Positions 11,121-35,828 of a stretch of DNA of 52,178 bases are shown in pieces (the stretch's first letter is position 1; the number at the start of each line of letters is the position of its first letter). Position numbers and translations under genes: made by a program. This DNA is from Arthrobacter sp. GTDB taxonomy: Bacteria; Actinomycetota; Actinomycetes; Actinomycetales; Micrococcaceae. The stretch spans positions 8,796 through 60,973 of the forward strand of contig NZ_JAPSHV010000005.1 in assembly GCF_031179385.1 (NCBI RefSeq), in the 5' to 3' direction. The notes beneath the pieces were generated by a model, which made no database searches, was not told the origin of the DNA, and worked only from the letters and a program-made list of their open reading frames with translations.

Positions 11121-13685
11121 CTACCGGACCATAGTGAGGACCGTCTGCGCTCCGTTGTCCAGAATTCCCCGGGCGGCATCGGATACGACGTCCGGCTTCT
11201 TGCCCTGGTTGAGCGCCTTCACGAACCGGTCCATCGCCTTGCCGACGTTGGCGACATTGCCCTGCTCAACACCCTCCTGCGCCTGGGCCAGCGAGGTTTC
11301 GAGCTGCTTGGCTACCGGTCCCGCAACATCGCCGCTGGCGATCAGGGATTCGAGCGTGGCCTGCAGGTATCCGATGAGCCCCGGAGTCCAGGCATCTGGC
11401 ACCGGAACATCTGCGAAGTCCATGTCCGAGGCAAAGTAGTAGCTCGTGTAGGACGGCTGGTTGTAGGAGGTGTTCTGGCGGGCCACCTCAGCGCGGTACT
11501 GCGGGTCGTGCATCAGCGTGGTCAGCTTGTGGTCCGTGACCTCGGTGCTGAGGTACACGCGGATCGCCGAGCTGTCTGCGGTACGAAGGAACAGCTCTTC
11601 CCGCCAGTCACCGAAGGCGTCCGCCACCAGTGCCGGGTTGCCCTTGGTGCCGTTGTTGGTCCGGGTGCCCTCAGCTGTCACGAGGCGGCCGCGGGTCCAG
11701 TCGTCGATGGTCGGCGTCCCGTTGCCGGAACCGTTGACGAGCTGCGTGGTCATGTCCGCCGCCCACTTGATGCTCTGGTTGGTGCCCGGGGTGCGGGACT
11801 CAACCCGCTCGCCGGTTGCGTTGAGCAGACCGGACCCGTCGCTGCCGCCAGGCATGCTGGCCCACACTTCGATACCCTCGACGTCGGAGCGCACATCACC
11901 GATCATGCCGCGGCCGGTGTCGCGGCCGGAGTACGCGCCGAAAAGCACTTCGCCGGTTGCCGCGTCACGCATGGCCGAGCCATAGGGAGCCCAGGCTCCG
12001 CCCTCGTGAACGGTCCAGATCTCCAGTCCGGGGCGGTTCGGATCAATGTCGGTGACGTGCATTGCGTCGCCGTGGCCAAGGCCTGCTTCCGCACCCGGAT
12101 TGCCGCTGCCCGACGGCAGGGTGTCGAAGGAGCTGTAGAGGAGCGAGCCGTCGTCGTCGATGGTGGCTGCGCCGTAAACGATCTCGTGCTTGCCGTCGCC
12201 GTCCACATCGGCGGCGCTGAGGGAGTGGAAGCCCTGAGTGGTGATGGAACCGAACTCGGGATCAGTGCCCAGGCGTCCATGGGGGCCGTCGTTGAACGGA
12301 TTGGTCATCGGAGTCCAACCGCTGTCCACGTTCCAGACCTTGGAGAGGTTCTTGCCGTCCCAGTTGTAGGCAACCAGGGTGGAGCGGGTGTAGTAGCCGC
12401 GGGCGAAGACGGCCGACGGACGCTGGCCGTCGAGGTAGGCGACACCCGCCAGGAAGCGGTCCACACGGTTGCCCGGCTCGATGCGGCTCATGGCGTAGTC
12501 GCCCCACATGAGGCCGTCGTCGTGACGTCCCGGCTCGTAGTCCACGGTCTGGAGCTCATCTCCAGTGGCGCCGTCGAACACCGTGAGGTATTCGGGGCCG
12601 CTCAGGATGAAGCCCTCGAAAGCGCGGAGGTTGTTGCGGGTGCTCCGTGAGGGTGCGTAGACGTCGATGAAGTAGTCCGCCATCGCGCGGGCATCGGCGT
12701 CGGAGAGCGGGTACTCGTACCGCTGCTCGATTCCGAACGCTTCCTCGAGGGTTGCCGGCCAGTTTCCGGCAACCACCTCAGGGTGCTCGTGCCAGCCGGC
12801 GAACATGTCGACGACGTGCTCGTAGTAATCGGCCGCGCTCTTCCGGTAGTCATCGGTGTTGCTGTAGCCCGCCGCGACGTCGTCCGCCGGCATGGTGATG
12901 TATTCAGGCTCGCCGGCCACGCCGTCCGTGTACCTGGTGACCGTGGTGCCTGGCGCGGTCTTCATCATCATCTCGGTGCGGCCGTCGCCGTCGAAGTCAT
13001 AGACCATGAACTGCGTGTAGTGCGCGCCGGAACGGATGTTCACGCCGAGGTCGATGCGGTGAAGCAGTGTGCCGTCCATCGCGTACGTGTCGATGTAGGT
13101 GTTGCCGGTGTAGCCGACCTGTGAGACGTCCTTGGAGTTGTTCGGCTCCCACTTCACGACGTACTCATAGTCGCCGTCACCGTCCGCATCGCCGAGGCTC
13201 ATGTCACTCGCCGAGTAGGCGTAGCTGTCACCCTTGGGAGTGACACCGTCGGCCGGCTTCTGGAGCGGGATCTCGGTGTACCCCTGCGCCCACGGGCTGA
13301 CGTCTGCGCTGCGCTGCAGTTCAACCCCACCGACGACGGCGGCAACGGAGTAGGTTGCATCAGCCGGCGCGCCGGTGTCGAGGTAGTTGGTGCTGTCGGT
13401 GACTGTGGCGATCTTCTCGCCGTTGCGGTAGACGGCGAAGTCGGCGCCGGTCTGACCGGTTTCGTTGGCTCCGGTTACTTCAGTAGCCAGGAGACGCCAG
13501 CTGAGGAAGGTTCCCTCGGTCGTGGCGGCCGCGACCAGGCCGCGGTCGAGGTGTTCGAGCTGTACGCCGATCTGGGCGTCGGGGGCGGGAGCAGCTGCGG
13601 CGGGAACGCCGCCGCCTCCCGCAATCAGGGCTGCACTGACGGCAAGCGTCGCCGGTATGGGTGTCAAGCGAAAGCGCGGGTTCAT
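11121..13685 (-). CDS. Secreted rhamnogalacturonan lyase, PL11 (YesW-like), with helical C-terminal domain
   Basis: An 854-residue secreted enzyme. The signal peptide runs to about residue 32 (GVPAAAA). An N-terminal beta-sandwich (about 35-125) is followed by the eight-bladed propeller of PL11, recognisable from repeated Ca-binding loops such as DADGDGDYEYVVKWEP, DFDGDGRTEMMMKT and DVDGDGKHEIVYG. The family cuts the rhamnose-galacturonate backbone of RG-I by beta-elimination and needs calcium. The last 85 or so residues (from LIGYLQATLESL) form a helical domain like the tail of the ThuA-domain protein downstream, probably FIMAH-type. AAAGGA precedes the ATG. A type B operator lies 18-32 bases upstream of the start. 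The gene is monocistronic, between a terminator and the promoter region. Confidence 0.93.
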   Translation of the reverse strand: MNPRFRLTPIPATLAVSAALIAGGGGVPAAAAPAPDAQIGVQLEHLDRGLVAAATTEGTFLSWRLLATEVTGANETGQTGADFAVYRNGEKIATVTDSTNYLDTGAPADATYSVAAVVGGVELQRSADVSPWAQGYTEIPLQKPADGVTPKGDSYAYSASDMSLGDADGDGDYEYVVKWEPNNSKDVSQVGYTGNTYIDTYAMDGTLLHRIDLGVNIRSGAHYTQFMVYDFDGDGRTEMMMKTAPGTTVTRYTDGVAGEPEYITMPADDVAAGYSNTDDYRKSAADYYEHVVDMFAGWHEHPEVVAGNWPATLEEAFGIEQRYEYPLSDADARAMADYFIDVYAPSRSTRNNLRAFEGFILSGPEYLTVFDGATGDELQTVDYEPGRHDDGLMWGDYAMSRIEPGNRVDRFLAGVAYLDGQRPSAVFARGYYTRSTLVAYNWDGKNLSKVWNVDSGWTPMTNPFNDGPHGRLGTDPEFGSITTQGFHSLSAADVDGDGKHEIVYGAATIDDDGSLLYSSFDTLPSGSGNPGAEAGLGHGDAMHVTDIDPNRPGLEIWTVHEGGAWAPYGSAMRDAATGEVLFGAYSGRDTGRGMIGDVRSDVEGIEVWASMPGGSDGSGLLNATGERVESRTPGTNQSIKWAADMTTQLVNGSGNGTPTIDDWTRGRLVTAEGTRTNNGTKGNPALVADAFGDWREELFLRTADSSAIRVYLSTEVTDHKLTTLMHDPQYRAEVARQNTSYNQPSYTSYYFASDMDFADVPVPDAWTPGLIGYLQATLESLIASGDVAGPVAKQLETSLAQAQEGVEQGNVANVGKAMDRFVKALNQGKKPDVVSDAARGILDNGAQTVLTMVR

Positions 13686-14780: not shown

Positions 14781-15923
14781 TTACTCCAGCTCGCTCTGCC
14801 AGGTTTGCAGGTCGCGAACCTTTCCGATCAGCAGGCCCTGCGCTCCGGAACCAGCGTCAACGTGCGCCCGTACCTGTGCGACAGCTGCATTGAGCTTGTC
14901 TGCAGAGTCAGCATGCAGGCCCGCATCCGCCAGCTCCTGGGCCTTCTCCAGTTGCTTCGACAGCTGTTCGGCGGCCTTCGGCGAAATCGTTCCGTCAGCC
15001 AGCAGGTTTTCGGTCAATGATTCCACCTCGTACCAAGTGGTGCAGTCGCCGCCGCCGTCGACAGCACCGGCCGACCATGCGATCCCACCCAGAAGGTGCT
15101 CAAGGAACACCGGATCCACGTACGACGCTTCTGTGTGCCCTCCGGCCGTGTACCACGAGCGCGCTGACTCAAAGTTGTGGCACCAGGACAGCGGGTGATC
15201 GGAACCCATGGCATTACGGCCGGGGTTGTAGGTTGTCTCATCGAGATTTGTGAGCACACGTACGGCATCGCGCGGGCTCTGGTTGAAGTTGTACCACTCG
15301 TCAAATCGGGTCCAGGATCCTGACAGATGCTTCGTGGAAGGGTGGGTGCCGTCTTCAACCGTCTGAACGGCGGTTTGCTGCGCGGGATGGCTGACGAACC
15401 GGGCACCGCCGCCTGTTAGTTCGCTGTACCAGGGAACGGTGTGCATCGAATCTGTCGCGGCATGGACACCGGCAAATCCGCCGCCGGCTCGGATATACCC
15501 CTGGAATGCTGTCAATTCACTGGTGTCGAGCAACGTGGGTTTCGCCGGATCGAGGTTATTCGTGCCGTCGACCGTGGATACGAAAACGATCGTTTCGTAC
15601 TTGGCCAGATCCGACGCACTGGTGAAAGGGGTGGTTGGCAGCGTGCGGTCCGGTTGCCCCAGATTCCTCGACGAGGTCGGCGGATCCCAGACATCGACGC
15701 TGAAACCGTTCGCTTCACCGAGGGCGATGATCGCCGTTGTGGCCTCGTCGATGCTGCTATGGCGGAAGCCTGTCGTCTTTCCCACCACAAGAACGTCATA
15801 GTCCTCGACCACAGCGGCTGTGGTGGAGACTGGCTCGGCCTGGGCGGGGGCCGTCGCCAACGCGGGAACGACGAGCGCCGCTCCTAAAACGCCGAGGGCT
15901 GCCTGACTGATGTATCGCTTCAT
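14781..15923 (-). CDS. Secreted ThuA-domain protein with helical C-terminal domain
   Basis: A 380-residue exported protein. The signal peptide begins MKRYISQAALGVLG and is cleaved near residue 29 (APAQA). A ThuA-like, glutamine-amidotransferase-type fold domain follows (about 42-280), with DVLVVGKTTGFRHSSI, GGGFAGVHAATDS and HPLSWCHNF as recognisable landmarks. ThuA-family proteins act on sugars, but the chemistry of this secreted branch is not settled. The last 75 residues (from VESLTENLLADG) resemble the C-terminus of the PL11 lyase. I chose the ATG at 15923 because AAGGAG precedes it. The open frame upstream to 16052 lacks a ribosome site. A 29-bp dyad lies about 105 bases upstream. Confidence 0.85.
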   Translation of the reverse strand: MKRYISQAALGVLGAALVVPALATAPAQAEPVSTTAAVVEDYDVLVVGKTTGFRHSSIDEATTAIIALGEANGFSVDVWDPPTSSRNLGQPDRTLPTTPFTSASDLAKYETIVFVSTVDGTNNLDPAKPTLLDTSELTAFQGYIRAGGGFAGVHAATDSMHTVPWYSELTGGGARFVSHPAQQTAVQTVEDGTHPSTKHLSGSWTRFDEWYNFNQSPRDAVRVLTNLDETTYNPGRNAMGSDHPLSWCHNFESARSWYTAGGHTEASYVDPVFLEHLLGGIAWSAGAVDGGGDCTTWYEVESLTENLLADGTISPKAAEQLSKQLEKAQELADAGLHADSADKLNAAVAQVRAHVDAGSGAQGLLIGKVRDLQTWQSELE

Positions 15924-16230
15924 TGCGCTCCTTCTGTTACGGCTGAATTCCCGAGCCGCGGACGGCTGAGCCGGAGGTTCGGGGGAAGTACGCTGCCGGT
16001 CCCCTTCAGCGCCGCTACTCTCATCGGCGGAATATGTTGGATCGAACAACATATTCCAAGTAAAGCGCCAATTGCGTCAGGAATCTACAGTTCGGCCTGA
16101 GGAAAATGCCCTGCTGATGAGAAGGGACCGGCAGCCCTACGCCGGGGACAGCCTGATTGGAGACCTGACCGTGTCATTACGCCGCCGTATCGACAGAAGA
16201 AAAGACGGGTTGCGCAGAGCCCTGCTTCGG
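15924..16230. other. 307-base intergenic region before the ThuA gene
   Basis: This stretch lies between the ThuA start and the end of the GH43-like gene, both on the minus strand. It holds the 29-bp dyad at 16029-16057 and presumably the ThuA promoter. A short GCCCTGC/GCAGGGC hairpin overlaps the stop of the GH43-like gene, with T-rich sequence further on, and could be a weak terminator. I see no other gene in it. Confidence 0.6.
16029..16057. promoter_or_regulatory. 29-bp dyad, probable operator of the ThuA gene
   Basis: The arms GGAATATGTTG (16029-16039) and CAACATATTCC (16047-16057) are perfect inverted repeats of 11 bp around a 7-base centre, GATCGAA. It is AT-rich in GC-rich surroundings. 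The size and spacing fit a dimeric repressor of GntR or TetR type. It is unlike the two operator types found elsewhere in the locus. Confidence 0.65.
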
Positions 16231-17148
16231 TCAGCGCAGGGCATCCACGGGCGCGTCGCGGTCGCAGATCAACGTCCCGCCCGCGACCCATAGGCGGGCG
16301 CGGTGCACCTCCGAGCGCCGCAGTGCGCCGGACTGAAGCTCGACGTCGTTACTTCCGTCCCACTCCGGATGCGTGAAGTAGAACGCGACGGCTTCCTCGC
16401 CACGGACGACGACGTCGGCATGCCTGCCCACCTGCCGATCCTCGGGGTGCTTTCCCGGCGCGTCGAGGATGAGACCCTGAGCGGTCCAATGCACACCGTC
16501 ATGTGACCGGTAGACGCGCTGGCCCCGCCACTCGTCGACAATCATCCACATCCAGCCGGCGAGCGGGAAAACGTTCGGCCCTTCGTGCGGCAACCCGTCG
16601 ATGACCCGCCCTTCCACGGTCCACGACTGTCCGTCCGGACTTACTGCAGCCCAGGTGGTGGAGCCGTCCGCTTCGTCCTTGTACCAGAGGCGGAGCAGTC
16701 CGTCAGGGGTGCGGGCGACCGCGGCATCGATGACGTAGTTGGAACTCAGCTCAAGAAACCCGCGGTGTTCCCAGTTCTCCAGGTCGTCGCTGACCAGGTG
16801 GGCGATACGGCGCTCGTGGCCCTCCCAGGTCGAAGCCACCCCACGGATCCACGTGAGGTACATGGAGTACTGCCCGCCGTCCCACACGACTTCGGGCGCC
16901 CAGTGGGTGTTCAACCCGGGCTCATCCGCCGGGTCGAGCCCGTCGACCACACCGCGATAATGCCAGTGAGCGCCGTCGTCGGACACCGCCATGCCGATCC
17001 GGCTGCCGTGCACCCACTCGACGCCGTGACCGGGGTCCGAGGGGCGCCGCTGGGTGTAGAACATCCGCCACTGCCCGGTCTGTTCATCCCGGATGACCGT
17101 TGGATCGGTGGGTCCGCCGAGCGGGTCGGACAGCAGCGGCGCGCTCAC
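16231..17148 (-). CDS. GH43-like five-bladed-propeller glycosidase
   Basis: A 305-residue protein with no signal peptide. Repeated motifs of the type VSDDGAHWHY, VSDDLENWEH, VSPDGQSWTV and RSHDGVHWTA mark the blades of a five-bladed propeller as in GH43, GH32, GH117 and GH130. An early Asp-Pro (GGPTDPTVIRD, Asp15) and a Glu in HWAPEVVWDGG are candidate catalytic residues. The start is GTG, overlapping the end of the MocA dehydrogenase gene by 4 bases, so the two are translationally coupled. In an RG-I locus it could remove arabinose, galactose or a modified unit from side chains. The exact family and substrate are uncertain. Confidence 0.7.
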   Translation of the reverse strand: MSAPLLSDPLGGPTDPTVIRDEQTGQWRMFYTQRRPSDPGHGVEWVHGSRIGMAVSDDGAHWHYRGVVDGLDPADEPGLNTHWAPEVVWDGGQYSMYLTWIRGVASTWEGHERRIAHLVSDDLENWEHRGFLELSSNYVIDAAVARTPDGLLRLWYKDEADGSTTWAAVSPDGQSWTVEGRVIDGLPHEGPNVFPLAGWMWMIVDEWRGQRVYRSHDGVHWTAQGLILDAPGKHPEDRQVGRHADVVVRGEEAVAFYFTHPEWDGSNDVELQSGALRRSEVHRARLWVAGGTLICDRDAPVDALR

Positions 17149-29003: not shown

Positions 29004-29259
29004 CGGCGTGAACGACGTAACTTTCCGGCAGATTGAGTGGTTCACGCTCCTTTATGCCCCTGGATCTGAGCAAGTTTTTTGGAGTTCAGGGACCAGCGAA
29101 AATGGCATGCACCGGTCCCGCATTCCGCTAGTTCGCAATGAATTCGACACCAATCCCGGGTGAACTCAACCCCAACCGGCAGTAAACACGTCGTGGTGCA
29201 ACATCATGGTCGTCAGTATGCTTACTAAACTGCTGCTCGACCGGGAACAGGGTGGGACC

Positions 29260-30717
29260 ATGGTGGATAGAAATGAAGCGCTCGGCGGGAACATGCACGC
29301 CCGGACGTCGGCTCGCTCCAGAACTGTCGGAGTGATTCTTGCCGGTGGAATCGGAACCCGGATGGGCCTTGATATTCCAAAGCAACTGGTGCCTATCGCG
29401 GGGAAAACGAGTCTCGAGCACACCACAGAGATCTTCCAGAACTGTGAGCTCATCGACGAAGTCCTGGTGATGATGGACCCGCACTGGATCGACCGGGCGC
29501 GAGAGTTACTGCCGACGGCGCACTACTCCAAAATCACGACAATCCTCGCCGGCGGCCGGGACCGCAATGAAACATCGTTCCTTGCCCTAGAGGAGATCGC
29601 CGATCCCCAGGCGAAGGTGATCTTCCACGACGCCGTCCGCCCCCTTCTCGACGCCGGAATCATCACGTCCTGCGTCGACGCTCTGGACACCTATTCCGCC
29701 GTGGACACCGCCATTCCCTCTGCCGACACCATCATCGAGGTGGACGAGCACGACTTGATCCGGGCCGTACCCCCTCGCGCATCGCTCAGGCGTGGCCAGA
29801 CACCGCAGGCTTTCCGATGGGAGGTGCTGATGCGGGCCTACTCACTGGCCCGGCAGGATCCGGATTTCGCCGCAACGGATGACTGCAGCGTGGTCCTCAA
29901 GTACCAGCCGGAGGTGCCGATCTTCGTTGTCCCCGGACATGAAGCGAACATCAAGCTCACCCATCCCATCGACATCCACCTTGCCGACAAGCTGTTCCAG
30001 CTCAAGCACCAGCACCCCGGGGCGATCCCACTACCCACGTCAACGCTTCGGGGCGCGTCCGTCGTGGTGCTCGGAGGAAGCTCGGGCATCGGTGCTGAGC
30101 TTGCCCGGCAGCTGAAGGAGGCGGGGGCCGACGTCGTGTGCCACAGCCGGACCGGCAGCGGAACCTTCGTGGAAGACCGGGCGTCCGTCCGGAGCGCACT
30201 CGCTTCCGCAGCGGCAAGCTTCGGGAAAATAGATCACATCGTGCTCACCGCCGGCGTCCTGACCGTGGGCGAACTGGTCACCCTGACAGACGAGCAGCTG
30301 CAGCATGATGTCGGAGTCAACCTGATGGCGGCGTTCGTTGTGGCGCAGGAGGCACACTCCTACCTCCGGGAGTCGCAGGGCTCGCTCCTGCTCTTCTCCT
30401 CCAGCTCCTACACCCGTGGCCGCGCCAAGTACACCGTCTACTCCGCTACCAAGGCTGCACTGGTAAACCTGACCCAGGCATTGGCTGATGAATGGAGTGG
30501 CGATCACATCCGCGTCAACTGCATCAGTCCCAGCCGCACGGCCACACCAATGCGGGAGAAGGCTTTCGGGATGGAGGACCAGAACACGCTGGTGCAGGCG
30601 GCCACCGTTGCTTCCTCAAGTGTTCAGGTGCTGGCTTCCGACTCCACCGGCCAGATCTTCGATGTCCGCCTACCGCAGACAGACCCCCTGCTCACGGAAT
30701 TGGAATCGGTCCTTTGA
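29260..30717 (+). CDS. Bifunctional CDP-ribitol synthase: IspD-like cytidylyltransferase fused to SDR reductase
   Basis: A two-domain protein of about 485 residues. The N-terminal IspD/TarI-type nucleotidyltransferase has VILAGGIGTRMG (about 25-36), PKQL, FHDAVRPL and RGQTPQAFR. The C-terminal short-chain dehydrogenase has GGSSGIGAEL (about 271) and the YSATK site (Tyr394, Lys398). This order matches Haemophilus Acs1/Bcs1, which reduces ribulose-5-phosphate to ribitol-5-phosphate and activates it with CTP. The start is uncertain: ATGs at 29206, 29218, 29260 and 29293 are all in frame. I took 29260, which has a modest GGGTGGG upstream. The 256 bases before it are relatively AT-rich and should hold the operon promoter. 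The LicD gene follows with a 4-base overlap. Confidence 0.82.
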   Translation: MVDRNEALGGNMHARTSARSRTVGVILAGGIGTRMGLDIPKQLVPIAGKTSLEHTTEIFQNCELIDEVLVMMDPHWIDRARELLPTAHYSKITTILAGGRDRNETSFLALEEIADPQAKVIFHDAVRPLLDAGIITSCVDALDTYSAVDTAIPSADTIIEVDEHDLIRAVPPRASLRRGQTPQAFRWEVLMRAYSLARQDPDFAATDDCSVVLKYQPEVPIFVVPGHEANIKLTHPIDIHLADKLFQLKHQHPGAIPLPTSTLRGASVVVLGGSSGIGAELARQLKEAGADVVCHSRTGSGTFVEDRASVRSALASAAASFGKIDHIVLTAGVLTVGELVTLTDEQLQHDVGVNLMAAFVVAQEAHSYLRESQGSLLLFSSSSYTRGRAKYTVYSATKAALVNLTQALADEWSGDHIRVNCISPSRTATPMREKAFGMEDQNTLVQAATVASSSVQVLASDSTGQIFDVRLPQTDPLLTELESVL

Positions 30718-32264
30718 ACGGGTCCTTGACGGCGGACACGCTGCGGCTGACCGTCTCTAAGGTGACCGTCCCTGCCGGCGAACCCCTTTCCCTCCTGCTT
30801 GGTGGCCGGCGAATCTGGACCTTCAAGGCGCCGAGCGAAGCTGCGGCGGCGCCCAGCTGGTCTGTGGAGTGGCCACCTGCACTGGCTGAACGGCTGGCCG
30901 GACGCGCAGCCCTCGCCGTCGAGCGCAATGGTATTCGAGTGGTGGAAGAGCAGCTCGTCTCCTTTGACGGCACAACCGACGAACTGCACCTGACAGAACC
31001 AGGCACGGGCTTCCCCCAGGTGGTCAACAAGTGGGGGCGCGTTGCCCGCTCCTTCGAAGGAAGGGATGCTGCCCTGGTCGAGGAGGTCCTCGACGAGGTC
31101 GAGCACCTGATCAGCGTCCTCCGCCGCGAACTGGGGATCGACCTCTTCGTCACCGGCGGCACCTTGCTGGGACCTGTCCGCAACGGCAGAATCATGGCAA
31201 ACGACGACGACGCCGACCTCGCCTACCTGAGCACGCACGGCAATCCGTCCGACGTTGCCCTGGAAAGCTTCACGATAGAACGAACACTGCTAACCCACGG
31301 GTATGAAGTGGTGCGCCATTCGAGCGGACACCTCCAGTTGATGTTTCCGGGCGGAAGCATCACTGACCGCTTTTACATCGACATTTTCAGTTACTTCGTG
31401 TGTTCCGGATGGTTCTACGGCACCTTCCACGCACGGGAGCGTGCCGAGCGCGTAACCATTCTCCCCCTGAAGCCGCTTCCCGTTAACGGGCGCCTGCTCC
31501 CCGGTCCAGCGGAGCCCGGACAACTCCTCGAAGCAATCTATGGGCCCACCTGGGAGACGCCTGATCCGACCTTCACCTTCGTCACCCCGCCTCCTGCATT
31601 CCGCCGGTTCTACTGGTGGCTGAACCACTTCGATGTCGACCGGGAGAATTGGGAGGATCACCACAGGGTGGACATCGCCGCGGGCCCAGCCGACACCGAG
31701 TCAGACGTTGCCCGGAAGGCTCTCCAGGTTTTCGGAGAGGGCTCCACCGTCCTGGAACTCGGGTGCGGATTAGGCGCTGATGCTCGCTTCCTTGCAGCCT
31801 CTGGGTTCGGAGTTCTGGCAATTGATTACAGCCGCCCAGCCATCCAGTACGCGCGGGCTCAACAAGACCCGGCTACAGGGTCCTCTCACTTCGAAACGGC
31901 CAACCTGAACTCAGCGCGCTCCGCCCTCCACGTGCGGAAGCTGTGCACTGCATTCACGAACCCGGTACATGTCTACGGGAATCACCTTTTCGACGCGCTG
32001 AGTCCGCTCGGCTGGGACACCACCCTGATGTTGGTCAAACATCTCCTCAACAACAGCGGCAGTCGCGCACTGTTCGAAATCAGGACCGGCAGCACCGGCG
32101 AACCAGTCCGGTGGAGCGGCTGCCAGCCTGTCGACTGGGATCGCTTCCAGGAACAGCTCCATCGTTACGAGCTGAGCATCGAGGACGAGGAAGAAGCTGC
32201 ACAGAACGAGGCAGATGCAGGCCCGACACACAGACGCGTCGTCGTACGGAAGGAGAACAGGTGA
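30714..32264 (+). CDS. LicD-type phosphotransferase fused to a SAM methyltransferase
   Basis: A protein of about 516 residues with a TTG start overlapping the upstream stop (TTGA). A later TTG is possible. After an N-terminal beta-rich region of 110 residues comes a LicD/FKRP-like nucleotidyltransferase-fold domain: LFVTGGTLLGPVRNG (144-157) and NDDDADLAYL (163-172), the metal-binding acidic cluster, then YIDIFSYF (221-228). LicD proteins transfer phosphocholine or ribitol-phosphate from CDP-activated donors. From about 340 a class I methyltransferase follows, with motif I VLELGCGLGADARFL (346-360) and AIDYS (369-373). The fusion suggests transfer of a polyol phosphate and methylation of the same glycan. 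Confidence 0.8.
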   Translation: MNGSLTADTLRLTVSKVTVPAGEPLSLLLGGRRIWTFKAPSEAAAAPSWSVEWPPALAERLAGRAALAVERNGIRVVEEQLVSFDGTTDELHLTEPGTGFPQVVNKWGRVARSFEGRDAALVEEVLDEVEHLISVLRRELGIDLFVTGGTLLGPVRNGRIMANDDDADLAYLSTHGNPSDVALESFTIERTLLTHGYEVVRHSSGHLQLMFPGGSITDRFYIDIFSYFVCSGWFYGTFHARERAERVTILPLKPLPVNGRLLPGPAEPGQLLEAIYGPTWETPDPTFTFVTPPPAFRRFYWWLNHFDVDRENWEDHHRVDIAAGPADTESDVARKALQVFGEGSTVLELGCGLGADARFLAASGFGVLAIDYSRPAIQYARAQQDPATGSSHFETANLNSARSALHVRKLCTAFTNPVHVYGNHLFDALSPLGWDTTLMLVKHLLNNSGSRALFEIRTGSTGEPVRWSGCQPVDWDRFQEQLHRYELSIEDEEEAAQNEADAGPTHRRVVVRKENR

Positions 32265-32473
32265 AGAGGATCCGGGTAGGAAAGCGGACATCGCACCGTG
32301 ACGTCATGGACCAGCTGGCGGACCTCCAGCTGGAAGTGCAGGCGCTGAAAGCTGAAGTAGCACGCCTCGACGCCGACCTCGACGAGTCACGCAGGCTGAA
32401 CCTGCGCGCAGCCGAACTGCTCGACGTCGTCTACCAGGAGTTGGGAGACCGCCATGACCGGGCCACGTTGTAA
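32261..32473 (+). CDS. Small coiled-coil protein
   Basis: A 70-residue protein with a GTG start, an AAGGAG ribosome site, and a 4-base overlap with the LicD gene. After a basic N-terminus (KRIRVGKRTSHR) it is almost entirely heptad-like helix (QLADLQLEVQALKAEVARLD), then ELLDVVYQEL. It could be a scaffold for the surrounding enzymes. Similar small coiled-coil proteins (DUF6752-like) occur beside actinobacterial glycan genes. Its end overlaps the next gene by 20 bases. Confidence 0.75.
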   Translation: MKRIRVGKRTSHRDVMDQLADLQLEVQALKAEVARLDADLDESRRLNLRAAELLDVVYQELGDRHDRATL

Positions 32474-33791
32474 CCGACCCATCGAAGTGATCGGCGGGTT
32501 CGAAAGCACGTTCCTGCCGGCTCACGATCGGGACATCTTCGAAACCACCCAACATGACCTCCGGTGGCGGGAGGACCTGCGATTACTGAGCAACTCCGGC
32601 ATTGTGCGGTTGCGATACCCGGTCAGGTGGCATCGCGTCGAGGAGACCGAGGGCAGTTATGACTGGTCGACGACCGATGAGGTTCTCGGCTTCCTGCGGG
32701 ACGAGGGCTTCCGCCCCATCGTTGACCTCGTCCATCACACGAGCTACCCCCGCTGGCTTTCCGACGGGTTCGCCGATGCACGGTTCGGCGACGCCTACCT
32801 TCGCTACGCGGAGGCTTTTGCTCGACGCTACCCGTGGATCGAGGAATACACCCTCTTCAATGAACCCTTCTCCACCCTGTTCCTCAGCGGCCATGAGGCT
32901 ATTTGGCCTCCCTATCACTCCGGCCTGCAGGGCTTCGTCGATCTGATCGTGAACGTGCTGCCCGCGGTAGCCGAGGCCAGCCGCCTTTACCGCACGCTGC
33001 TGCCTCACGCTCGCCACGTTTGGGTAGACACCTGCGAGTTCCACACGGGGTCGGACGCAGCGGGCCAGTCCTACGCTGACATGGCGAACGAGCGCCGCTT
33101 CCTGGTGCTGGATGCCTTCCTCGGCAGAGACTACGACGACGGCGGCCAGCTCGCACGCGATCTTGAGCCGGTGGGCGGCGAGCGCCTGAAGGGCCTGGTC
33201 CCCGGCTTCGTGGATGTCCTCGGGCTGGACTACTACGCTCACTGTCAGTGGAACTTCTCCATAGAGGGAGGATCGACCCCCACGCCGACGCCTCTTCCCC
33301 TGGCGGATCAAATCGGGCAGTACTGGGAGCGCTACGGGCTTCCCTGCATGATCACTGAGACGAACGTCCGTGGCCACACCTCTGACCGCGCAACCTGGTT
33401 CAAGTACGTCCTTGAACAGTGCGAGATCGCGCAGGAACGGGGCGTTCCCCTCGAAGGCCTGTGTTGGTTCCCAGTCATCGACTCCACCGACTGGGATTCC
33501 CTGCTGTTCCGCTGTGACGGCCATATTGACCCCGTGGGGGTCTACTGGCTGGACGAGAACCTCGAGCGGCGGAGCTCCGTCATGGCGACCTCGTATGCGC
33601 TGGCCGCCGGCGGTGCACGAGCGCTTGACCTTCCCGCCTACCGGTTCCAGCAACCCGTGGACGCCTGGCTCAAGGGCTATCTACCGCAGATGTCGCACTG
33701 GAATTGGCAGGAGCCGCCCTCTACCGATATTGGATCCAGCCTCCCCCGAACAACCACACGTATGGAATTGAGGATCGTCGATGCAAAGTGA
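32454..33791 (+). CDS. GH1-like TIM-barrel glycosidase
   Basis: A 445-residue protein of clan-A type. IVRLRYPVRWHRVE and WIEEYTLFNEPFS place the acid/base Glu137 in NEP, and PCMITETNVRG gives the nucleophile Glu302. It is close to, but shorter and more divergent than, GH1 beta-glucosidases. No signal peptide is seen, so it would work in the cytoplasm. The ATG has GGGAG six bases upstream. A hydrolase within a glycan-building operon could trim intermediates, act as a transglycosidase, or edit faulty products. It overlaps its neighbours by 20 and 11 bases. Confidence 0.78.
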   Translation: MTGPRCNRPIEVIGGFESTFLPAHDRDIFETTQHDLRWREDLRLLSNSGIVRLRYPVRWHRVEETEGSYDWSTTDEVLGFLRDEGFRPIVDLVHHTSYPRWLSDGFADARFGDAYLRYAEAFARRYPWIEEYTLFNEPFSTLFLSGHEAIWPPYHSGLQGFVDLIVNVLPAVAEASRLYRTLLPHARHVWVDTCEFHTGSDAAGQSYADMANERRFLVLDAFLGRDYDDGGQLARDLEPVGGERLKGLVPGFVDVLGLDYYAHCQWNFSIEGGSTPTPTPLPLADQIGQYWERYGLPCMITETNVRGHTSDRATWFKYVLEQCEIAQERGVPLEGLCWFPVIDSTDWDSLLFRCDGHIDPVGVYWLDENLERRSSVMATSYALAAGGARALDLPAYRFQQPVDAWLKGYLPQMSHWNWQEPPSTDIGSSLPRTTTRMELRIVDAK

Positions 33792-34917
33792 ACTCATTGT
33801 CCTGTCACACCTCCGCTGGGATTGGGTCTGGCAGCGGCCGCAGCAACTCGTGTCGAGGCTCGGCAAAGCGCCGGCGCGCAAGACATGGTTCGTGGAGGAG
33901 CCGCTCACTCCTGCGGGTGGGACCACCGAGAATCGGCTCAACAGCAACGAGGTCGACGGTCTCACACGCGTCTGGCTCGAGATCCCCGAGCAGGGCAGGC
34001 ACGTCGGCTTCTTCGATGAAGTGATGCCCGACTACGTGGAACAACTCCCGAAGCTGATCGGCGAGCCCGAGGGTGAGCGGGTCGTCTGGATCTATACGCC
34101 GCTTGCACTTGAGGCCGCCCTCGCTCTCAAACCCACCACTTTGGTGTACGACATCATGGATGACCTTGCGGCCTTCAAGGATGCCGCTCCTGAGCTTCTG
34201 GTGCGCCAGCGGCAGGCCCTGAGGAAAGCCGACGTCGTTTTCGCTGGAGGGAGATCGCTCCACCGGTCCGTCGTCAAACAGGGCAGAGAGGACGCACATC
34301 TCGTGCCAAGCGGGGTAGCTGCGGAGCACTACGCCGCGGCCGGCCGCGCGGCCGGCACGGACCGCAGCACACGAACTGCCGGGTACGTCGGAGTCCTCGA
34401 CGAACGACTTGATCTCGCCCTGGTGGCAGAGCTCGCCGAACGGCTTCCGGACTGGGAGATCCGTATGATCGGTCCCATTTGCAAGATCGACGCCGCGGAT
34501 CTCCCGCAAGCGCCGAACATCAGCTATCTGGGTCAGCAGGCCTACGAGGATCTTCCCCGCCTGATGGCTGACCTGGATGTGGCGCTGATGCCATTTGCCT
34601 TGAACGAATCGACCAGATCGATCAGCCCGACGAAGACGCTTGAGTACCTCGCGGCCGGTCTTCCGGTTGTATCAACGCGGGTACCCGACGTAGTGGCCGA
34701 TTTCGAGGGCGTGGTAGAGCTCAGGAATGATGCGCGTGGTTTTGCGGCGGCCTGTGTCGACCTTCAGGGACAGGCCGGCAGGAAGGCACGGGCTACCGAG
34801 TTGAAGCGGCTTATGAAGCACCACCACTGGGACCGTATTGCGGGGCTCATGGAGAAACTGGTCTTCACGGCTGCGAACGCCAATTCAGAAGCCGATGCCG
34901 CCGAGGCGACTGCTTAG
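33781..34917 (+). CDS. Glycosyltransferase (GT-B fold)
   Basis: A 378-residue GT-B enzyme. The N-terminal half has [17 protein letters not shown] (about 7-23), a pattern seen in many glycan-cluster transferases, and [11 protein letters not shown]. The C-terminal half carries the donor-site region with [20 protein letters not shown] (about 277-296) and [19 protein letters not shown] precedes the ATG. No membrane segment is visible. It overlaps the GH1-like gene by 11 bases. The sugar donor is not predictable. Confidence 0.85.
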
Positions 34918-34922
34918 CTGCC

Positions 34923-35828
34923 ATGGCTGCCGGCAACAGAGCTGCGGATACTTATCTCTCCTCCGAGTACCCGCCGCCCGGACACCTGCTCCTTCACCTC
35001 AGCGACACCCACATCCTGGGCAGGGGCGAGCCACTGTACGGAGCCGTGGACAGCGAGGCCCGGCTCCGGCAATTGCTTGGGAGCATCCGGGCTTCGAATC
35101 TCCGGCCGGACGCCCTCATCCTCACGGGGGACCTGACCGACAGGGGTGAGCCGGCGGCGTACCGGAAGCTGCGCAGCGTCGTCGAACCGGTGGCCCGAGA
35201 GACCGGCGCACAGCTCATCTGGCTGATGGGCAATCATGATCGCCGTGAAAATCTCCGCGCCTGTCTTCTGGGGGAAGCACCTGCGGCCACCCCGTTGTAC
35301 CGGAGCTACCTGCTGGGTGGACTGCGGATCATCACTCTGGACACCTCGGTGCCCGGGTACCACTATGGGTCGCTCGATTCCGAACAACTCGCTTGGCTAG
35401 CGGCAGAACTGGCGACACCCGCACCGGAGGGCACCATTCTTGCGATGCATCATCCTCCCATCCCGATGATCCAGAACCTTGCGGTGCTGACGGAGCTGCG
35501 GAACCAGGACCGTCTGCGCCGGGTCATTGAAGGGTCGGACGTACGGCTCATCCTTGCCGGACACCTTCATGTCTCGACCTCGTCGATGTTCGCCGGCATC
35601 CCGGTCTCCGTGGCATCGGCAACCTGCTACACCCAGGATCTGCACGTGCCCGACGGCGGCGCCCGCGGGTGGGATGGCGGCCAGGGCCACAACCTCGTGC
35701 ATGTCTACCCCGGGACCATCGTCAATTCGGTCGCGCCGCTAGGATCTTTCAGCACGGTTGGAACACACCTGTCAGCAGAAGAAGTCGAAGAGCGGGTTCG
35801 CGGCGCCGGAGTTTCCAGCGGTAACTAG
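34923..35828 (+). CDS. Metallophosphoesterase, CpdA/GpdQ-like
   Basis: A 301-residue calcineurin-like phosphoesterase with all metal motifs: LHLSDTH (Asp28, His30), LTGDLTDRG (Asp70), GNHD (Asn104, His105), MHHPP, and GHLHVS near the C-terminus. The family hydrolyses cyclic nucleotides, glycerophosphodiesters or UDP-sugars. Five bases after the glycosyltransferase it could clear a phosphodiester by-product of the glycan pathway, but a general cAMP-phosphodiesterase role is equally possible. It is convergent with the DUF1206 gene. Confidence 0.88.

Follow-up and report, generated by a model that had tools for sequence, protein, structure and literature searches.

We describe a six-gene operon of the soil actinobacterium Arthrobacter sp. 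(assembly GCF_031179385.1) that, on balance, we read as a self-contained cytoplasmic module adding ribitol phosphate, perhaps methylated, to a galactofuranan-type glycan exported by an ATP-binding cassette (ABC) transporter, possibly as an end cap like that made by WbdD. The operon lies in a 52,178-nucleotide stretch of contig NZ_JAPSHV010000005.1 (the window). Its genes, here called A to F, are all on the + strand and span positions 29206–35828. Two of its products carry the argument: A, a candidate CDP-ribitol synthase, and B, which appears to join an FKRP-type LicD domain to a methyltransferase. The domain identities, the conservation of catalytic residues, the gene linkage and the co-occurrence among genomes were all computed. 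The transferred group is likely to be ribitol; galactofuranan as the acceptor is a tentative assignment, and a terminal cap, as opposed to a side decoration, is more doubtful still.

An initial annotation had read the operon as six genes in one direction, with overlaps of 4–20 bases or a gap of 5, encoding an IspD/short-chain dehydrogenase/reductase (SDR) fusion, a LicD/methyltransferase fusion, a coiled-coil protein, a GH1-like protein, a GT-B transferase and a phosphoesterase. The open reading frames (ORFs) and their joins, read directly, agree with that layout, and Pfam, NCBIfam and a profile of B homologues agree with the families.

Conservation of the cassette

The genes are tightly packed: A and B overlap by 4 bases, B and C by 4, C and D by 20, and D and E by 11, and E and F are separated by 5. 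We searched for B in 57 genomes (the window genome, 34 of the same genus and 22 of the same order). Full-length B was found in the window genome and in 14 of the 34 congeners; outside the genus it was found in one genome of another family (G054), as a 37% relative. The order A-B-C-D-E on one strand is kept in all 14 congeners with B, and F follows in 13 (it is absent from locus L015). Conservation of gene order had been proposed as a check on the initial annotation, and at this level it argues that the arrangement is not due to chance. Searched for separately, A, D and E gave strong matches in the same 15 of the 35 genomes of the genus as B and in no other member of it. Among the 57 genomes, the matches outside the genus were G054 and G055 for A, at most 131.6 bits for D, and none at E ≤ 1e-20 for E.

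The cassette occupies different chromosomal places among members of the genus. A SPOUT methyltransferase gene (PF02590), which we take to be rlmH, lies just upstream in 12 of the 14 same-genus loci; no such gene was found beside the cassette of the window, L015 or L016. A scan with the B profile, using one genome per species, gave 78 loci from the best 80 of 138 relatives. Within these the full A–E set occurs only in L030–L042, which are titled Arthrobacter or Pseudarthrobacter with the exception of L032. In L040–L042, F lies upstream of A, and we argue from this that F belongs to the unit. A promoter and terminator scan gave two promoter-like and three terminator-like sites, in line with shuffled sequences (means 0.9 and 4.5). 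The record behind L032 (WNZI01000007.1) is titled Vibrio cholerae strain 35D, holds an Arthrobacter cassette and looks mislabelled.

Gene A, a candidate CDP-ribitol synthase

Gene A (29206..30717; ATG start, alternative start at 29293) carries an IspD domain (residues 43–262, 152 bits) and an SDR domain (residues 293–467) in one ORF (Pfam). It is a candidate bifunctional CDP-ribitol synthase, with an N-terminal TarI/IspD-like cytidylyltransferase and a C-terminal SDR reductase, in a domain order that we take to be that of Haemophilus Acs1/Bcs1. All 7 sequences compared share YxxxK (Y412, K416) and GGSxGIG, presumably the SDR motifs. When the first half was compared with the PDB, 3f1c, 4jis, 6xhp and 2vsh outranked all IspDs, at 103–119 bits for the ribitol-type structures versus 102 for the best IspD, a small margin of 1–17 bits. 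The titles of 4jis and 6xhp name a ribitol-5-phosphate cytidylyltransferase; those of 3f1c and 2vsh name a methylerythritol enzyme, and we assume that both are TarI. As judged by this ranking, the cytidylyltransferase half appears to resemble ribitol-5-phosphate enzymes more closely than it does IspD of the methylerythritol phosphate (MEP) pathway. The window genome has a separate ispD-ispF pair, whose IspD scores 213.6 bits, above the ispD equivalog cut-off of 181.3, and ranks the PDB structures in the opposite way to A, by more than 100 bits. Since the genome keeps its own pair, we rejected A as the IspD of that pathway; production of CDP-methylerythritol only, the outcome named as refuting the initial annotation, is unlikely.

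Which protein uses the product of A? No match to PF04464 (the TagF/TarL type) was found in the window genome, which is 92% complete, or on B (Pfam), which leaves B as the sole CDP-ribitol user detected. In six Nocardioides genomes whose A contexts we read, a PF04464 protein lies nearby in five (L128 and L130–L133; 259–282 bits), and none was found near A in L129. Nor was a PF04464-type protein found in the A + B loci L029, L057, L079 and L081. To judge from these contexts, A-type enzymes seem to serve TarL-type transferases in some genomes and B in others. Genes that look by eye like sulfotransferases also lie near A in L128 and L130–L133.

Gene B, an FKRP-like domain fused to a methyltransferase

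Gene B (30714..32264) begins with a TTG codon that overlaps the stop codon of A (TTGA). Its product has a beta-rich N-terminal part (~1–104), a LicD nucleotidyltransferase domain (~107–288) and an S-adenosylmethionine methyltransferase domain (~305–516; Methyltransf_25, 28.1 bits, cut-off 27). The matches listed in a fold search with whole B were methyltransferases, and the LicD part was therefore modelled alone. Pfam LicD matches 53 of 53 members of the B family at E ≤ 0.01, and the B of L043 exceeds the cut-off, at 27.9 bits. A profile of these 53 homologues has human FKRP as its best PDB match (E 2.3e-13), which settles the LicD assignment and bears out the kinship with the FKRP family that the initial annotation had suggested searching for. 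Four aspartates of B (D164, D166, D168 and D223) are invariant in all 53 homologues and correspond to the FKRP catalytic residues D360, D362, D364 and D416. The LicD domain is predicted to have an FKRP-type nucleotidyltransferase fold, with an active site matching that of human FKRP. A search of the window genome for LicD gave no match at E ≤ 0.001; it also missed B, and hence excludes little.

Two or three B paralogues lie close together in L069, L077, L083, L084, L085, L104, L105 and L107, mostly from Nocardioidaceae. Six of these eight paralogue pairs are on opposite strands.

Gene C, a recurrent partner of B

Gene C (32261..32473; GTG start) encodes a 70-amino-acid coiled-coil protein that matches DUF6752 (30.6 bits, cut-off 27), and it is the only protein of the window genome to do so. 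We searched for C in 93 loci and counted it in 79 loci, which hold 88 B genes, scoring it as beside B where a C-like stretch (E ≤ 0.01) lay on the same strand within 500 bases downstream or in the same ORF. Such a stretch accompanies 60 of the 88 B genes, 58 times downstream and twice within the B ORF (L029, L043); the other 28 have none at this threshold. Conversely, 60 of the 64 C-like matches are in one of these two positions, and the downstream windows make up 1.9% of the sequence. When the 14 Arthrobacter-group loci (L030–L043) are left out, C accompanies 46 of the 74 remaining B genes, and of the 50 remaining C matches 46 are by B. DUF6752 also stands at the C terminus of B itself in L029 (23.2 bits) and L043 (20.1 bits), both under the cut-off. 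Because the C matches cluster at B, and because DUF6752 ends B in these two loci, C appears to be a recurrent partner or a detached tail of B across actinobacteria well beyond Arthrobacter. Neither this partnership nor the link of B to galactofuranan genes was seen in the initial annotation; both are new here.

The acceptor glycan

What does the putative transferase modify? In several other genera, B is linked to genes for galactofuranan synthesis and export. By tblastn, 11 of the 79 loci have a GlfT2-like gene no more than 8 kb from B; they come from Actinomycetospora (five; only 32–33% identical), Nocardioides, Naasia and Agromyces. Glf, GlfT2 or Wzm-Wzt is near B in 14. The glf, glfT2 and B genes are consecutive on one strand in L079 (Naasia aerilata), the end of glfT2 (7920) overlapping the assigned start of B (7917). 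We also looked for GlfT2 in 28 of the 30 B genomes that were tested for A, a set chosen before the galactofuranan lead arose: 26 have it, 24 of them as a single copy. The distance between B and GlfT2 is at most 8 kb in 7 of the 26 and at most 18.5 kb in 8, versus 0.23 expected for the wider limit, which was chosen after the distances were known. The eight near cases represent four genera and hence are not eight independent events. G054 is an additional case, with B ~13.6 kb from GlfT2; its A and B lie among glycosyltransferases and O-antigen-polymerase-like proteins, identified by eye, and an ABC exporter confirmed by similarity. The window genome has galactofuranan genes of its own (Pfam GLF 276 bits, GlfT2_domain3 174, Glft2_N 101). 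The presence of GlfT2 within the genus, tried as a test of the link, was uninformative.

Proposed mechanism

In the mechanism that we favour, the SDR half of A would reduce ribulose-5-phosphate, and the cytidylyltransferase half would convert ribitol-5-phosphate and CTP to CDP-ribitol. The LicD domain of B, by a metal-dependent mechanism like that of FKRP, would place ribitol-5-phosphate on a lipid-linked glycan on the cytoplasmic side of the membrane, and the methyltransferase half would methylate the newly added unit. The coiled coil of C would dock B on a partner, either a polymerase or a membrane complex, and may set spacing. The modified glycan would then leave through an ABC exporter, the likeliest acceptor being a Glf/GlfT2 galactofuranan exported by Wzm-Wzt. 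For the other three proteins our guesses are that E probably attaches a sugar to the unit, that D may act as a trimming enzyme or a transglycosylase, and that F may cleave phosphoesters or excess CDP-ribitol.

The initial annotation had proposed a surface glycan carrying a methylated ribitol-phosphate unit. What stands of that, from sequence and fold, is a CDP-ribitol-type synthase that would feed an FKRP-type transferase-methyltransferase, in a surface-glycan setting in some relatives; the group, the target of methylation and the glycan itself stay conjectural. The most specific form of our proposal is speculative: an actinobacterial cap at the non-reducing end of an ABC-exported galactofuranan, in which an FKRP-type transferase-methyltransferase with a coiled coil installs methyl-ribitol-phosphate in the manner of WbdD, CDP-ribitol replacing ATP. 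If true, Gram-positive bacteria would have an equivalent of the O-antigen terminators, and an ISPD-FKRP pathway in bacteria would act on a relative of the mycobacterial galactan. The proposal predicts a modification on actinobacterial galactofuranan, the type of polymer that anchors the mycobacterial wall. In human dystroglycanopathy the ISPD-FKRP chemistry is defective, and the cassette could also offer a way to model it in bacteria. DUF6752 gains a testable role as a partner, and there is now reason to seek methylated ribitol phosphate in Arthrobacter walls.

Relation to known systems

Partnerships of CDP-ribitol with LicD-family proteins are already in print, and the cassette represents known chemistry in a new protein architecture and setting. 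The human CDP-ribitol synthase ISPD is reported to feed the LicD-type ribitol-phosphate transferases FKTN and FKRP, and the same report mentions bacterial ISPD-LicD fusions (PMC4873967). In Enterococcus faecalis, TarI (EF2172) and the LicD proteins EF2175 and EF2168 have been proposed to transfer ribitol phosphate to the wall polysaccharide EPA (PMC7188991). To call the pathway undescribed, as the initial annotation did, was therefore too strong. No description of the cassette was found in the titles and abstract openings of the top matches in the open-licence literature.

B resembles FKRP in keeping all four catalytic aspartates but differs in its fused methyltransferase, its N-terminal part and its coiled-coil partner; the zinc-finger loop and a second loop of FKRP are reported to be conserved in FKRP orthologues only. 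The EPA system shares CDP-ribitol and LicD-family transfer with the cassette. However, it uses separate proteins, its model includes a Wzx flippase, and the part of the report available mentions neither a methyltransferase fusion nor a coiled-coil partner (PMC7188991). Bcs1 of Haemophilus influenzae reportedly makes CDP-ribitol (PMC10299916), and A likewise joins a cytidylyltransferase and a reductase in one chain, whereas the H. influenzae type b user of CDP-ribitol, CroT, is described as a GT-B enzyme and compared with TagF (PMC10299916), and does not belong to the LicD type. Actinobacillus CpsC, a LicD-family glycerol-phosphate enzyme with FKRP homology (PMC11666461), is a bacterial LicD domain that uses a CDP-polyol; as described, it differs from B in its CDP-glycerol donor, its N-terminal TPR domain and its Gram-negative capsule. 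Unlike TarF, TagF and TarL, B has no PF04464 domain.

The terminators of the WbdD type (Escherichia coli O9a, Klebsiella O3/O7) are described as combining a phosphate-adding domain, a methyltransferase and a coiled coil, and as acting on an ABC-exported glycan (PMC3482155, PMC11231755). The coiled coil is given as marking this strategy of assembly, and the terminal pyruvate of Klebsiella O1 as only diversifying the chain (PMC11231755). B and C share with WbdD the methyltransferase, the phosphate-adding domain and the coiled coil, a likeness of architecture only. In WbdD the phosphate-adding domain is an ATP kinase, whereas in B it is of the LicD type. Moreover, the coil of C is short and usually a separate protein, and the Wzt of the window genome, from the GlfT2 locus, has 242 amino acids and matches only ATPase families in Pfam, without a carbohydrate-binding extension that could read the chain terminus. 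The short coil and the plain Wzt weaken a strict analogy with WbdD.

Contrary evidence and alternative explanations

Several further observations weigh against the proposed module. A is under both NCBIfam cut-offs (166.8 of 181.3 bits for TIGR00453, 153.5 of 166 for NF001183), and the B of the window is just under that of Pfam LicD (21.1 bits, cut-off 22.6). FKRP is the sole LicD-family structure among the matches listed for the B profile, a result that does not tell whether the group is ribitol or, instead, glycerol, choline or some other CDP-linked moiety. Another divergent LicD protein could be present in the window genome, since the search there missed B. Full-length A was found in 14 of 30 tested B genomes (two of the 30 being Arthrobacter) and was missing from 16, and G055 has A without B. 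The loci of A and B in L092 (Agromyces) and L054 (Leucobacter) also encode a PF04464-type protein (15687–16949 and 1598–2653, respectively), which is a possible customer of A. As to the acceptor, 65 of the 79 loci have no Glf, GlfT2 or Wzm-Wzt within reach, two of the 28 B genomes have no match to GlfT2, B is not seen within 18.5 kb of GlfT2 in 18 of 26 genomes, and GlfT2 is present in 35 of 35 genomes of the genus, whether or not they carry the cassette. In the window genome, the exporter that matches that of G054 lies beside Glf and GlfT2 on another contig than the cassette.

An unlikely alternative, though the best placed of the four that we weighed, is that the LicD domain transfers another CDP-linked alditol or amino-alcohol phosphate, such as glycerol phosphate, or that A makes a CDP-pentitol other than CDP-ribitol. 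The LicD family is broad, including CpsC with CDP-glycerol (PMC11666461) and homologues reported to use CDP-choline (PMC4873967), and the 16 B genomes with no full A are in keeping with a different donor. However, A adjoins B in all 14 congeners, the two genes have identical distributions in the genus (15 of 35 genomes), and A is closest to ribitol-5-phosphate cytidylyltransferases.

It is improbable that B is instead a polymerase, in the manner of CpsC, making wall teichoic acid of the poly(ribitol phosphate) kind in an organism without TagF or TarL. The lack of a PF04464 match in the window genome would fit, and a LicD-family polyol-phosphate polymerase is known (PMC11666461), but a fused methyltransferase and a coiled-coil partner would be expected of an enzyme that makes one terminal or side modification more than of a processive polymerase, and in five of the six Nocardioides genomes (all but L129) A lies near PF04464 proteins instead. 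Slightly less probable again is that the product is a small molecule, soluble or secreted (a ribitol-phosphate metabolite carrying sugar and methyl groups), with no modification of the wall. The cassette has no transporter gene, D is glycosidase-like, and the unit is compact and patchily distributed (15 of 35 genomes); against this, A and B of other genera are accompanied at their loci by Wzm-Wzt, GlfT2, Glf and sugar-nucleotide genes. Finally, that A is a second IspD of the MEP pathway with unrelated neighbours is very improbable: it is a member of the IspD superfamily, with mycobacterial-type IspDs scoring little lower than the ribitol enzymes, but the separate IspD passes the cut-off that A fails, and A has a fused reductase and is strictly linked to B.

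Genes D, E and F and other observations

Gene D (32454..33791) encodes a GH1-like protein of clan GH-A (Pfam GH1, 43 bits) that scores 54.1 of 478.5 bits against the NCBIfam GH1 beta-glucosidase, far under the cut-off. Glu137 (in NEP) and Glu302 (in TETN), which we take to be the catalytic residues, are kept in 6 of 6 sequences, and a working glycosidase or transglycosidase is hence possible. Distant relatives of D (30–34% identity; four loci, judged by eye) have genes for sugar import beside them and resemble common catabolic glycosidases, and were uninformative as to its role. In L016 (genome G012), D is split over three frames at ~11650–12970, as a result of a sequencing error or as a pseudogene.

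Gene E (33781..34917) encodes a GT4-type (GT-B) glycosyltransferase, whose best NCBIfam match is TuaH (81.7 of 550 bits, far under the cut-off). Gene F (34923..35828) encodes a calcineurin-like metallophosphoesterase of the CpdA type, with 86.6 of 225 bits against NCBIfam CpdA, under the cut-off. In genome G019, the stretch L138 9175–11524 holds another E-type glycosyltransferase (66%), a second copy for that genome, directly after a gene 40% identical to a polysaccharide pyruvyltransferase; similar genes also occur near B in L044, L063 and L099.

Elsewhere in the window, positions 2803–25821 hold genes for plant-polysaccharide catabolism: GH42, rhamnogalacturonan lyase PL11, ThuA, an FGGY kinase, an aldolase-SDR fusion and a MocA oxidoreductase.

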